This document shows, one piece after another, positions 3,372-39,551 of a stretch of 46,749 nt of DNA (the stretch's first letter is position 1; each line of letters opens with the position of its first letter). This stretch comes from an uncultured Psychroflexus sp. GTDB taxonomy: Bacteria > Bacteroidota > Bacteroidia > Flavobacteriales > Flavobacteriaceae. The position numbers were made by a program, and so were the translations under genes. Location: positions 1 through 46,749 of the forward strand of contig CAJXLO010000008.1 in assembly GCA_913056525.1 (NCBI GenBank). The letters are read 5' to 3'. The notes beneath the pieces were generated by a model. It was not told the DNA's origin. It did no database searches and worked only from the letters and a program-made list of their open reading frames with translations.

Positions 3372-4730
3372 ATGTCACCCCAGCGATTTCGCTATTCCGG
3401 TTACCTAAGACCTATCACTTATATTTTTGATATAAGTGTTTTTAGCATTCTAGCGTTGCAGTTTGACCTTAAACCGGTTGATTGGGGCTATTTTCTAGGT
3501 TTTCATATTATGGCCTGGGGCATTCTATCTATAAAGTCTGGATTTTACGAAGTTTATAGGATCACTAAAGTAGTAAGGATAATTTCGCTTATCATATTAC
3601 AAGCGGTGATCTTTACGCTTATTGTCTTCTTTTATTTTCATTTGTTCATAAACGAACAATACTCATCTCAAAAACTATTCTTTTATCTTGCGCAGGTATT
3701 TTTGCTCATTTCCATGTTCAAACTTGGAATTTACTTCCTACTTAAAAAATATCGACGGTTCACAGGAAGTAATTTCAGAAAGATAATAATTGTAGGTAAC
3801 AGCCCGACAACAAGGCAACTTAAAGCATTCGCTCACAATGCACCAGAATATGGTTATGAGATGAAAGCGCATTTTGAGATCGATGATAATGATCAGGAAT
3901 TTTATTTAGACCATATCATAGACTACAGCTTACAACATAAGATAGATGAGATATATTGCTCAGTTTCCAGTCTAAGCAATCAAACCATCAACGACCTGAT
4001 AGACTTTGCTGATAATAATTTGAAGACCATAAAGTTCATACCTGACAATAAAGACCTTTATGCAAAACAACTGACCATAGATTATTATGGCTATCTACCC
4101 ATATTGTCACTTAGAAGAATACCTGTAGATGACCCTTTAAACAGGTTGATGAAAAGGTCTTTTGATCTTATCATGTCATCTTTGGTCGTTGTTCTGTTAC
4201 TATCATGGTTAACCCCTTTATTAGGCTTGCTCATCAGAATCGAATCTAAAGGACCTATTTTTTTCAAGCAAAAAAGGAATGGCCTGGGATATAAAGAGTT
4301 CTACTGCTATAAGTTCAGGTCAATGCGTCCTAATAGTGCTAAAGCCAATGAATGGGTAAAGCCTAATGATGCTCGTGTAACTAAGATAGGAAAGTTTATC
4401 AGAAAAACCAGCATTGACGAGTTGCCCCAATTTTTTAATGTTTTTCTGGGTGAAATGTCAGTGGTAGGACCGCGACCACATCCGGTAAGTCACACGGAAA
4501 TGTTTGTAGGCAAGATCGATAAGTTCATGGTACGCCACCTAGTAAAACCCGGAATAACCGGTCTCGCCCAAGTAAGCGGTTTTCGCGGAGAGGTAGAGAC
4601 TGACCATGATATCATCAATCGGGTAAAGTATGATATCTTCTATATAGAGAACTGGTCTATTCTGCTGGATATCAAGATCGTTATCCAGACGATATTCAAA
4701 GCCGTTGAAGGTGATAAAAAGGCTTATTGA
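3372..4730 (+). CDS. Polyprenyl-phosphate sugar-1-phosphate transferase (WcaJ/WbaP type)
   Basis: Starts a repeat unit by moving a hexose-1-phosphate from a UDP-sugar to undecaprenyl phosphate at the inner membrane. The N-terminal third holds several hydrophobic helices. A middle CoA-binding-like Rossmann piece (RKIIIVGNSPTTRQL, about residue 137) follows, and the C-terminal bacterial sugar-transferase domain shows KRSFDLIMSS, the YKFRSMR motif, SIDELPQFFNV, SVVGPRPHP and KPGITGLAQVSGFRGE. All expected blocks are present and the 452-residue length is normal for two-domain members. It starts three bases after the UXS stop and its TGA shares one base with the next ATG, so it belongs to the same operon. 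Whether it transfers glucose or galactose is not decidable. Confidence 0.94.
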   Translation: MSPQRFRYSGYLRPITYIFDISVFSILALQFDLKPVDWGYFLGFHIMAWGILSIKSGFYEVYRITKVVRIISLIILQAVIFTLIVFFYFHLFINEQYSSQKLFFYLAQVFLLISMFKLGIYFLLKKYRRFTGSNFRKIIIVGNSPTTRQLKAFAHNAPEYGYEMKAHFEIDDNDQEFYLDHIIDYSLQHKIDEIYCSVSSLSNQTINDLIDFADNNLKTIKFIPDNKDLYAKQLTIDYYGYLPILSLRRIPVDDPLNRLMKRSFDLIMSSLVVVLLLSWLTPLLGLLIRIESKGPIFFKQKRNGLGYKEFYCYKFRSMRPNSAKANEWVKPNDARVTKIGKFIRKTSIDELPQFFNVFLGEMSVVGPRPHPVSHTEMFVGKIDKFMVRHLVKPGITGLAQVSGFRGEVETDHDIINRVKYDIFYIENWSILLDIKIVIQTIFKAVEGDKKAY

Positions 4731-37860: not shown

Positions 37861-38718
37861 ATGTTAGATGTAGTTATCATCATCCCGGCGCATAATGAGG
37901 AAAAGTTCATAAAAAAGACCCTGAATTCTCTGTTAGGACAAACCTATCTCCCAGCAAGAATTATTGTAGTTGATGATCATTCTACTGATCGAACCGCGGA
38001 TATTGTTCAAGAATTGGCGGAACGTCATTCCATCATTAATCTGATCAATAGGCGATCTAAAGCAAATAGTCTTCCTGGAGCTAAAGTGATCAATGCCTTT
38101 TATGATGGACTTGCTACTGTTGAGGGTCATTATGATGTTATTTGCAAGTTCGACGCTGACCTTGTGTTCCCAGTCAATTATCTCCGTACACTTGTTGATG
38201 CTTTTCAACAAGAAGTTGATTTGGGAATGATAGGTGGTGTCTGCACGATCTATCAAAACGATACATGGAAAGTTGAAGGATTGACCAATTTAGATCATAT
38301 CAGGGGCGCGATCAAAGCCTATAGAAGACCTTGTTTTGAACAGATAGGCGGTCTTAAAAGAGCCATGGGTTGGGATACAATAGATGAGCTACTGGCCAGA
38401 TATCATGGCTGGCAAGTTAAAGTAAAAAAAGAGTTAAAGGTCAAACACCTTAAACCAACTGGCAAAAATTACAGCCGAAAATTACCTTTACAATTCGGGG
38501 TATCGGTATTTAAAATGAGGTACGGTTTCTTCATAGGTTTATTGGCTATAAGTAAATTGGCTTTCAGAAAAAAAAGCCTTTATTTTTTTATTCTAGGCTG
38601 TCTGGGTTTTTTAAAGGCCTTAATGTTAGGTGAGAGCAAATTAGTAACCAAAGACGAAGGACTTTTTATCCGTCAATACCGGATGCGAAACATCAAAAGA
38701 CGTTTTTTGTTAACCTGA
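37861..38718 (+). CDS. Glycosyltransferase family 2
   Basis: A 285-residue GT-A enzyme: VVIIIPAHNEEKFIKKTLNS, VVDDHSTDRTADIV, the metal site CKFDADLVFP and a catalytic-base region in MGWDTIDELLARYHGW. Two hydrophobic stretches near residues 205-250 may associate with the membrane. I choose ATG 37861: the in-frame extension back to 37765 lies inside the methyltransferase-like gene and does not resemble the family. It is the last gene of the three-gene operon with KASIII and is followed by about 150 bases before the tRNA-Cys duplication. A 7-bp hairpin without T run lies at 38803-38822. Confidence 0.9.
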   Translation: MLDVVIIIPAHNEEKFIKKTLNSLLGQTYLPARIIVVDDHSTDRTADIVQELAERHSIINLINRRSKANSLPGAKVINAFYDGLATVEGHYDVICKFDADLVFPVNYLRTLVDAFQQEVDLGMIGGVCTIYQNDTWKVEGLTNLDHIRGAIKAYRRPCFEQIGGLKRAMGWDTIDELLARYHGWQVKVKKELKVKHLKPTGKNYSRKLPLQFGVSVFKMRYGFFIGLLAISKLAFRKKSLYFFILGCLGFLKALMLGESKLVTKDEGLFIRQYRMRNIKRRFLLT

Positions 38719-38941
38719 CGGGATCAGCATTCTCATTAAATCCGTAGCATCCAATTCTGAACCTAACTTTAGTTCTCTTAGTTGAAAATCGATAAGTAAT
38801 CATTGAAGGTCCTGGCCTTCAACACAAATCAAATAAAGACTAAAGAATTCAATATTAAGCGATTGTTGGCAAAGATGTCGGCAAAAGAAACTAAATAAAA
38901 ACCCTAAAGAACTGTATATCAATTAAATAAGGTTTGCTTGT

Positions 38942-38992
38942 TGAGGTGCCGAGCGTCCCGACGCATCGGGAGAACCGCTGTAGAGGGTTTTT
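38942..38992 (-). pseudogene. tRNA-Cys 3'-half pseudogene with a 16-bp palindrome in the T-loop
   Basis: Matches the tRNA-Cys gene from the acceptor 3' strand to about the anticodon loop, then diverges. In the T arm, five bases of the intact gene are replaced by TCCCGACGCATCGGGA (38956-38971), a palindromic hairpin (TCCCGA / TCGGGA, CGCA loop on the plus strand). It lacks the 5' half, so it cannot make a tRNA. Confidence 0.8.
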
Positions 38993-39029
38993 TTAGGATT
39001 ATCGGCAAAGATGTCGGCAAAGTTTATCA

Positions 39030-39072
39030 AATAAAAAACCCTAAAAAACTTATTATCAGTTAATTAGGGTTT
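39030..39072 (-). terminator. Intrinsic terminator of tRNA-Cys
   Basis: AAACCCTAA / TTAGGGTTT perfect 9-bp inverted repeat (39036-39044 and 39064-39072) with a 19-base loop; on the minus strand it is followed by a T run. A less perfect version lies in the duplicated copy. Confidence 0.7.
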
Positions 39073-39080
39073 GCTTATTG

Positions 39081-39151
39081 AGGTGCCGAGCGGATTCGAA
39101 CCGCTGTAGATGGTTTTGCAGACCACTGCCTAGCCACTCGGCCACGGCACC
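39081..39151 (-). tRNA. tRNA-Cys (anticodon GCA)
   Basis: Full cloverleaf on the minus strand: acceptor GGTGCCG / CGGCACC with discriminator T, D arm GCC...GGC, anticodon stem-loop GTGGT-CTGCAAA-ACCAT with anticodon GCA, T arm AGCGG-TTCGAAT-CCGCT. About 71 bases; CCA is not encoded. It lies 43 bases downstream of folB in the same orientation. Confidence 0.96.
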
Positions 39152-39194
39152 TTTTATAGTGCAAAAGTAGTAATATTCTATTTAAATCAATGGA

Positions 39195-39551
39195 TTATCT
39201 GTTTTTTGTGAGTTCTATGGTAACCGCTTTGCAGTCAGCGTTCAGCGGTGGGTTAAGTTTTGAAACGCTTACCGTAGTTTCGTTCACGGCTGGAAGCTCA
39301 TCAAAAATCCGCTGATTGATACGTTCAGCAACATGTTCCAATAGTTTTGAACGCTCTGCCATTTCTTCTTTGATAATTTTAGTAAGGTGAACGTAATCTA
39401 CTGTATCAGCTAGACTATCACTGTGAGCTGATGCTGATAAATCTGCCTCAACAACCATGTCTACGCGATAATCGCTACCTATCTTTGCTTCTTCTTCCAG
39501 ACAACCATGATAAGCATAGAGTCGTATGTTATTTAATCGTACTTTTCCCAT
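39195..39551 (-). CDS. folB: Dihydroneopterin aldolase
   Basis: Cleaves 7,8-dihydroneopterin to 6-hydroxymethyl-dihydropterin and glycolaldehyde in folate synthesis. A 118-residue tunnel-fold protein: KVRLNNIRLYAYHGCLEEEA with the catalytic region at YHGCLEEE, VDYVHLTKIIKEEM, and the C-terminal KLNPPLNADCKAVTIELTK with the conserved lysine. Length and order match FolB. A -7 box lies 15 bases upstream. It is followed by tRNA-Cys on the same strand, possibly one transcript. Confidence 0.94.
   Translation of the reverse strand: MGKVRLNNIRLYAYHGCLEEEAKIGSDYRVDMVVEADLSASAHSDSLADTVDYVHLTKIIKEEMAERSKLLEHVAERINQRIFDELPAVNETTVSVSKLNPPLNADCKAVTIELTKNR

Follow-up and report, generated by a model that had tools for sequence, protein, structure and literature searches.

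A probable nuclease-less derivative of tRNA-targeting GIY-YIG elements beside tRNA-Cys in Psychroflexus, and the family of hairpin-tagged tRNA copies to which it belongs

Introduction

Integrative elements at the 3' ends of tRNA genes rebuild a functional tRNA and leave a partial tRNA copy at their far end, and the palindromic elements of Rickettsia are known from protein genes. REP sequences are described as short dispersed palindromes with a conserved tetranucleotide foot, GTAG or CGTC, and are accompanied by REP-associated tyrosine transposases (PMC3733652, PMC6006769). The SegB protein of phage T6 is described as a free-standing GIY-YIG homing nuclease that cuts inside tRNA genes, prefers the sequence RAWTSGAAC and is needed for the tandem amplification of a tRNA segment, a process aided by homologous recombination; in the main text of that paper the terms 'palindrom', 'hairpin' and 'T-loop' do not occur (PMC13096335).

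Here we describe a displaced, truncated copy of tRNA-Cys in 46,749 nucleotides of DNA from an uncultured Psychroflexus sp. of the Flavobacteriaceae (the whole of this stretch is called the window below), and we follow its arrangement through related genomes. The copy in the window is, taken alone, a relic of low interest; the family that it reveals is what is of real interest.

Results

The intact tRNA-Cys gene of the window (anticodon GCA; 39080..39151, minus strand) was called by ARAGORN and matches Rfam RF00005 with 63.2 bits. Upstream of it an entry in the ORF list (39195..39551, minus strand), which is folB-like to judge by its sequence, has tblastn matches beside tRNA-Cys in relatives and served as the landmark for the orthologous locus. 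Directly 3' of the tRNA a terminator-like stretch is recognisable by eye (39033..39072, minus strand), followed by a spacer between units (38992..39032) which holds a copy of the 18-mer GGCAAAGATGTCGGCAAA (39004..39021) and in which a six-frame profile search detects no nuclease remnant. Then, offset by 137 bp downstream on the same strand, comes a truncated tRNA-Cys 3' half that runs from the 3' side of the anticodon stem to the 3' end (38943..38991, minus strand), with a diverged copy of the terminator-like stretch (38896..38935, minus strand) and the distal copy of the 18-mer (38868..38885), the end of the duplicated unit. The first-pass annotation had proposed just these parts, a broken second half with its own terminator and a shared 18-mer, and alignment bears it out: BLAST within the window pairs the intact and displaced units at 78% over 133 columns (E 1.4e-20), and the 18-mer, which is part of the duplicated unit, occurs at only two places in the genome (assembly 80% complete), both in the window.

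Also correct was the claim that a palindrome stands for exactly five T-loop bases. GTTC is kept, and GAATC, which follows it in the intact gene, is replaced by the 16-bp palindrome TCCCGATGCGTCGGGA, so that the hairpin TCCCGACGCATCGGGA lies directly after GTTC (38956..38971, by sequence and alignment). Folded as single-stranded DNA, it forms a 6-bp stem on a 4-bp stem (z -2.0; 11 of 200 shuffles as good). Uniqueness of the palindrome in the genome had been named as an argument against a mobile repeat, and the exact form, matched on both strands because it is near-palindromic, does occur at one place only in the window and in its genome (assembly 80% complete), but the looser core CCCGA-N0-8-TCGGG is found at seven places against one for a control. 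The genome has two further hairpin-bearing truncated tRNA copies, of tRNA-Phe at C47 and of tRNA-Met at C10. The displaced tRNA-Phe half (G000:C47:14289-14429) lies near a contig end, and the terminator stretch beside it is a 91% match to that of tRNA-Cys (39034-39087); contig G000:C40 breaks off where the intact tRNA-Phe has its 3' end, and repeats of this sort may be the reason.

Profile searches in six frames of 38701-39200 gave no GIY-YIG signal (best 2.4 bits, E 0.3), so the unit in the window would be a relic or a non-autonomous unit, and a search of the genome with the Phe-type nuclease described below found nothing at 1e-12. A peptide AKMSAK, readable by eye on the plus strand at both 18-mers, had been suggested as the possible end of a lost gene; we dropped it as a protein end because it has no profile signal and lies on the strand opposite to the nuclease genes, and GLSAKMSAKFIK as a GIY-YIG end was set aside on the same two grounds.

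Searched against 60 related genomes, the window region finds the tRNAs themselves and gives short matches to its hairpin part, some of them in tandem. Behind one tRNA-Ala, for instance, stand seven units of about 91 bp; each of them reads as a tRNA-Ala 3' end with a hairpin for the T-loop and a terminator, and the same arrangement stands at Cys, Phe, Asn, Met, Leu, Pro, Arg, Val, Asp and other tRNAs. The pattern GTTCYCCCGAN2-8TCGGG, some places of which lie away from tRNAs, is present in 19 of the 60 genomes (17 of the 27 in the window's genus, its own included) and its reversed control in none of the 60; phylum-wide the strict pattern is rare, with three of 296 genomes, all from the window's family and one of them the window's own. 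Within the genus (27 genomes) the palindrome recurs at 246 places and its reversed control at 7, tRNA and other places being counted together. To that extent the notion of a recurring palindrome has held. Its placement is not random: most copies have it at the same fixed position of the T-loop.

A scan of named genomes, in which tRNAs were sought within 800 bp, gave 164 hits on at least 120 stretches. Among the matches listed, 116 of the 164 hits have a same-strand tRNA 5' of them (at most 800 bp away), 4 have one 3' and 44 have none, and no hit has an opposite-strand tRNA alone. Some of the 44, again among the matches listed, lie at contig ends; others are probably chance hits in unrelated phyla or belong to a separate leader-like family of the Bacteroidales. 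Counted by locus, 96 in the matches listed have tRNA evidence (80 of them in Flavobacteriaceae) and 26 do not, two loci standing in both groups. A survey by tRNA flanks only, at loci mostly chosen by the hairpin, places T-loop GTTC-hairpin copies beside 22 tRNA species, mainly in Flavobacteriaceae, and at least 18 of these species were matched in the named-genome scan. For 216 tRNAs this survey returned 160 copies, 155 of them with a T-loop insert of 14-27 nt (exactly 16 nt in 125), the others being two with a T-loop of normal length, one 11-nt match on the opposite strand and two that overlap annotated tRNAs.

Two genomes that were not chosen by the hairpin (G025 and G003) were surveyed by eye from their tRNAs outwards, with matches to the last 12 tRNA bases, a procedure blind to copies diverged there, such as the decayed tRNA-Cys copy of G003 that was found at the orthologous locus. 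Partial copies exist for 9 of 37 and 2 of 32 tRNAs, respectively, and every copy that keeps the 5' side of the T-arm, 11 in G025 and 6 in G003, has a palindrome for the T-loop, three of the 11 in G025 being imperfect or decayed and one of these 11 copies lying 5' of its tRNA. The nine further copies, which lack the 5' side of the T-arm, are eight tRNA-Lys or tRNA-Ile fragments and one tRNA-Met fragment; tRNA-Lys and tRNA-Ile 3'-end copies in G025 abut a larger imperfect inverted repeat (L302, L283). At the level of sequence, the anatomy and recurrence of the hairpin-tagged copies are well supported. Among the papers listed by searches of the open-access literature, none describes them in its title or the start of its abstract.

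In many relatives a gene for a GIY-YIG protein of about 93 amino acids lies between or beside the intact and the broken tRNA. The units measure about 83-490 bp, any recognised product in them is this protein, and three proteins of related elements match PF01541 only (8e-16, 6e-13 and 7e-17). At tRNA-Phe the commonest intact order is tRNA, terminator, GIY-YIG gene, a truncated tRNA copy close behind the stop, and terminator, and the gene mostly starts 34-61 bp after the tRNA; at L064 (same genus, tRNA-Phe) two near-identical tandem units of 370 bp consist of gene, stop, TCCCTGGTTC-hairpin-CTGGAGGCACC and terminator. The units of another array have their nuclease gene internally deleted with both ends kept, a form from which hairpin-only units could naturally arise. 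In all 42 nuclease/hairpin pairs among the matches listed the gene is on the same strand as the tRNA copy, and in 29 of these 42 the nuclease profile match ends 7-21 nt before GGTTC.

From the second tRNA 3' end downstream of the intact gene the first-pass annotation had proposed the scar of a tyrosine-integrase element in tRNA-Cys, and the rebuilt tRNA with its partial copy is indeed a likeness to the integrative elements of tRNA ends. The intervening DNA of several relatives, however, holds by reading no recognised gene or GIY-YIG only, no integrase stands in the loci read through, and units of less than 0.5 kb, tandem arrays and a hairpin in the partial copy all set the family apart; T-loop palindromes and tandem arrays of one tRNA end are not expected of tyrosine-integrase scars. 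The duplicated end may well be a scar left by a family of elements that make use of tRNA-Cys, and an integrase as its author is scarcely credible.

Loci picked blind to the hairpin tell the same story from the side of the protein. These were the best 30 by nuclease protein alone, from 397 genomes of the family, 57 with a match at 1e-12. By eye, 26 of the best 30 have a palindrome-interrupted truncated tRNA copy near a nuclease gene, in most of them right behind its stop; those at L347, L357 and L366 (the last doubtful) are decayed and those at L356 and L376 imperfect, and the four without a displaced copy are L355, L369, L375 and L361, which stops at a contig end. All 14 copy-bearing loci at tRNA-Phe have the palindrome in the T-loop after GTTC (with GCTC for GTTC in two of the four copies at L359). 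At the ten copy-bearing tRNA-Asn loci it lies in the anticodon or variable region (seven), the D-loop (one) or the T-arm region (two), at two protein-picked tRNA-Met loci in the anticodon loop and in the T-arm (one each), and some displaced Asn and Met copies have an intact T-loop with the palindrome elsewhere. With the Phe copies all tagged in the T-loop and the Asn and Met copies mostly at other sites, where the palindrome lies appears to depend on the nuclease/tRNA lineage and not to be a matter of chance. A nuclease tree, built from a short alignment of few columns with labels assigned by script, needs 5 changes for its 27 Phe-labelled rows against a shuffled mean of 23.8, with none of 500 shuffles as low, and the Cys-linked nuclease genes fall in this Phe group; the Met, Ala(ggc), Ser and Val labels are clustered no more than in shuffles. 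The Phe-type nuclease protein has no match in phage and plasmid collections at 1e-5, and viral contigs gave one hit, without a tRNA.

These results also bear on a plainer account, in which the tRNA 3' end was simply duplicated in tandem on the spot and then mutated. The window alone needs nothing more, yet replacement of the T-loop recurs at 22 tRNA species and is linked to a nuclease, and the named-genome scan, the flank-only survey and the hairpin-blind loci all contradict such an account, which makes it very improbable. The orthologous tRNA-Cys site, tabulated in 23 genomes of the genus with folB as the landmark where there was enough sequence (G001 and G013 are short on one side), is occupied by a nuclease gene in four (G010, G017, G024, G026) and by a hairpin half only in four others (G000, which is the window's genome, G007, G012 and a decayed one in G003; two of these cases by reading the sequence), and 15 have neither in the stretch covered. 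Sister strains with a local duplication and nothing else had been named as what would speak against an element, and with a nuclease-gene element in four of the 23 genomes there is more than that here. Gene-bearing loci have the order hairpin-tagged copy, gene, intact tRNA-Cys, the copy being seen in three of the four and, in G026, on another contig. A nuclease gene is thus present at the target locus and absent from it in some relatives, as in homing elements. In G024 the tRNA copy beside folB reads GGTGTCG and the intact one GGTCTCG, as in G017, a difference that suggests replacement of the local tRNA by one that came with the element. The large gap between folB and tRNA-Cys in G018 has another ORF inside and no hairpin copy.

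The outer pair of the hairpin, left free in the search pattern, covaries (C-G 83, T-A 74, T-G 4, C-A 3). Copies picked out through their tRNA flanks or through the nuclease have compensatory variants of the inner stem: CACCGA-AGCT-TCGGTG (at tRNA-Met in the window's own genome), CTCCGA-AGCT-TCGGAG and TCCCCAA-AGCC-TTGGGGA. Hairpin identity compared within genomes and within tRNA species shows no clear difference (13.7, 13.2 and 13.1 of 16). A covarying stem, co-orientation with the tRNA and, in the arrays read, units that each have their own terminator-like stretch would suit functional trailer or decoy RNAs, with a hairpin for the T-loop so that tRNA-processing enzymes ignore them. In the loci read, however, a terminator-like stretch stands between the functional tRNA and its displaced copy, the copies at Asn and Met can keep an intact T-loop, the 15 unoccupied genomes of the 23 show no copy at tRNA-Cys, and in 10 loci Rfam (E up to 0.1) reports tRNA only above threshold, with four matches below gathering scores. 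A role as functional RNA is, on this evidence, improbable.

A GTTC foot is present in 218 of 275 distinct palindromes, in a collection whose loci were for the most part picked by a pattern that contains GTTC, and the other 57 have no GTTC foot on either side and no common foot. A palindrome follows the nuclease gene in 10 of 29 cases against 2.5% of control windows, a comparison confounded by terminators and, in some loci, by the choice of another gene copy, to which we give no weight. The idea that the palindrome inserts into hairpin loops of any kind was unsupported by folding energies with shuffled flanks, and a run-length test of such a preference was weak (9 of 52 against a mean of 2.2 and a maximum of 9).

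The palindrome family is not confined to T-loops. At L220 (Flavobacterium pectinovorum; minus strand, about 3580-3690 and 4090-4150) tRNA-Ala copies have their whole anticodon arm replaced by a palindrome of 16-17 nt, and one of them has its T-loop replaced as well. The displaced tRNA-Phe copies at L212 (Flavobacterium sp. 11; 1158-1230 and 1547-1620) have a palindrome both in the terminator loop and in the T-loop, and the terminator of the intact tRNA-Phe has none. The tRNA-Met arrays of L137 (G009, minus strand, 560-1560) and L150 (G012) have TACGCCCGAGGCGTA or TCCGCCTNAGGCGGA in the variable region, and only some units have a T-loop hairpin too. L138 (G026) shows a palindrome nested in a palindrome, an identical 27-nt insert standing in its Val(tac) and Val(gac) halves. 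At L142, L140 and L124 (G025, G021) the GGTTC-hairpin lies within a longer dispersed repeat away from tRNAs. Loci of the Bacteroidales (L192, L250, L186, L210, L165, L177) have a conserved leader-like stretch of another kind, GAAACC(C)ACATG...CATG(T)GG(G)TTC-TCCCGATAAATCGGGA-CA(G/A)GC. It likewise stands away from tRNAs, and in the five loci scanned it has no Rfam match except a distant one to tRNA. At L107/L151 (G010, tRNA-Arg) a GIY-YIG gene ends inside the 5' end of tRNA-Arg, and the C-terminus of the preceding GIY-YIG copy runs via a tRNA 5' piece into a palindrome peptide, YLPAGRQG.

One may ask, then, whether an independent mobile palindrome of REP or Rickettsia type inserts wherever it does least harm, with displaced tRNA copies as tolerant landing pads and the linkage to the nuclease secondary. 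Members outside tRNA copies, the 57 of 275 distinct palindromes without a GTTC foot, the replacement of an anticodon arm or a terminator loop and the nesting at L138 are all in its favour. Short dispersed palindromes with a tetranucleotide foot, here GTTC, recall REP sequences, and a GIY-YIG C-terminus that passes into YLPAGRQG recalls the palindromes inside genes of Rickettsia; unlike REP sequences, however, the palindromes are tied to displaced tRNA copies and a GIY-YIG gene and have a foot other than GTAG or CGTC, and unlike the Rickettsia elements they tag tRNA loops. Moreover, random landing would leave many copies untouched and scatter the positions, whereas the 17 T-arm-bearing copies of the tRNA-first survey and the 26 protein-picked ones all have a palindrome, decayed ones included, tRNA-Phe has it at a fixed base, and a general preference for hairpin loops is unsupported. 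We regard an independent mobile palindrome as unlikely, although it is the strongest of the competing accounts.

Discussion

Several features liken the family to SegB: a GIY-YIG nuclease next to tRNAs, tandem tRNA arrays and a presumed target, the T-loop, whose reverse complement is the preferred motif of SegB. RAWTSGAAC becomes GTTCSAWTY, and the hairpin replaces exactly the SAWTY half. The SegB motif fits 64 of 100 tRNAs with T-loop-hairpin copies against 25 of 69 tRNAs of two genomes (Fisher p 5e-4), in a comparison that is uncorrected for relatedness, uses unmatched genomes and has GTTC built into most of its searches; the other 36 of the 100 do not fit it. Unlike the phage system, the family resides in bacterial chromosomes, its protein is a lone one of about 93 amino acids, a truncated second copy of the tRNA stands behind the gene, and a palindrome occupies the presumed cut site. 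The GIY-YIG catalytic domain is present in the elements of relatives and absent from the copy in the window.

We think it probable that 38868-39151 is a nuclease-less derivative of a tRNA-targeting homing-type element of the GIY-YIG kind. The observations behind this reading are the anatomy of the units and their recurrence, covariation of the hairpin, co-orientation with the tRNA, linkage to the nuclease, and presence or absence at orthologous sites. The nuclease would cut the tRNA gene at a loop motif, which for Cys would be the T-loop GTTC-GAATC, and repair from an element-bearing template would insert the gene together with enough tRNA sequence for one working tRNA. The displaced tRNA piece would have its cut site replaced by the palindromic hairpin, and we propose that it would therefore no longer be a target. 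Repair of breaks between units could then give rise to tandem arrays, and loss of the nuclease gene to short hairpin-tagged units such as the one in the window. Cutting, homing or other movement, and the hairpin as a dead site are what we infer from comparing sequences. Since the rebuilt functional tRNA still has the sequence that is presumed to be cut, immunity would take more than a dead displaced copy.

More tentatively, and as a possibility that we would put well short of probable, the family could be a distinct class of minimal mobile element on tRNA genes. A lone GIY-YIG domain would recognise the loop, and the hairpin would be a working part, an end or a donor or immunity site, that is written into the loop at insertion. 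Such an exchange of loop for hairpin might take place on single-stranded DNA, and short hairpin-only units, that of the window among them, might be moved in trans, much as MITEs are.

If the favoured reading is true, the Flavobacteriaceae would have a counterpart on bacterial chromosomes to phage SegB, namely very small selfish nucleases that live off tRNA genes without disabling them and mark them with a structured tag. This would explain the odd truncated tRNAs and the arrays of tRNA ends in this family. It would also give a comparative handle on the cut sites of GIY-YIG nucleases, and it would raise a question that experiments can address, namely by what route precisely the presumed cut site is exchanged for a palindrome.
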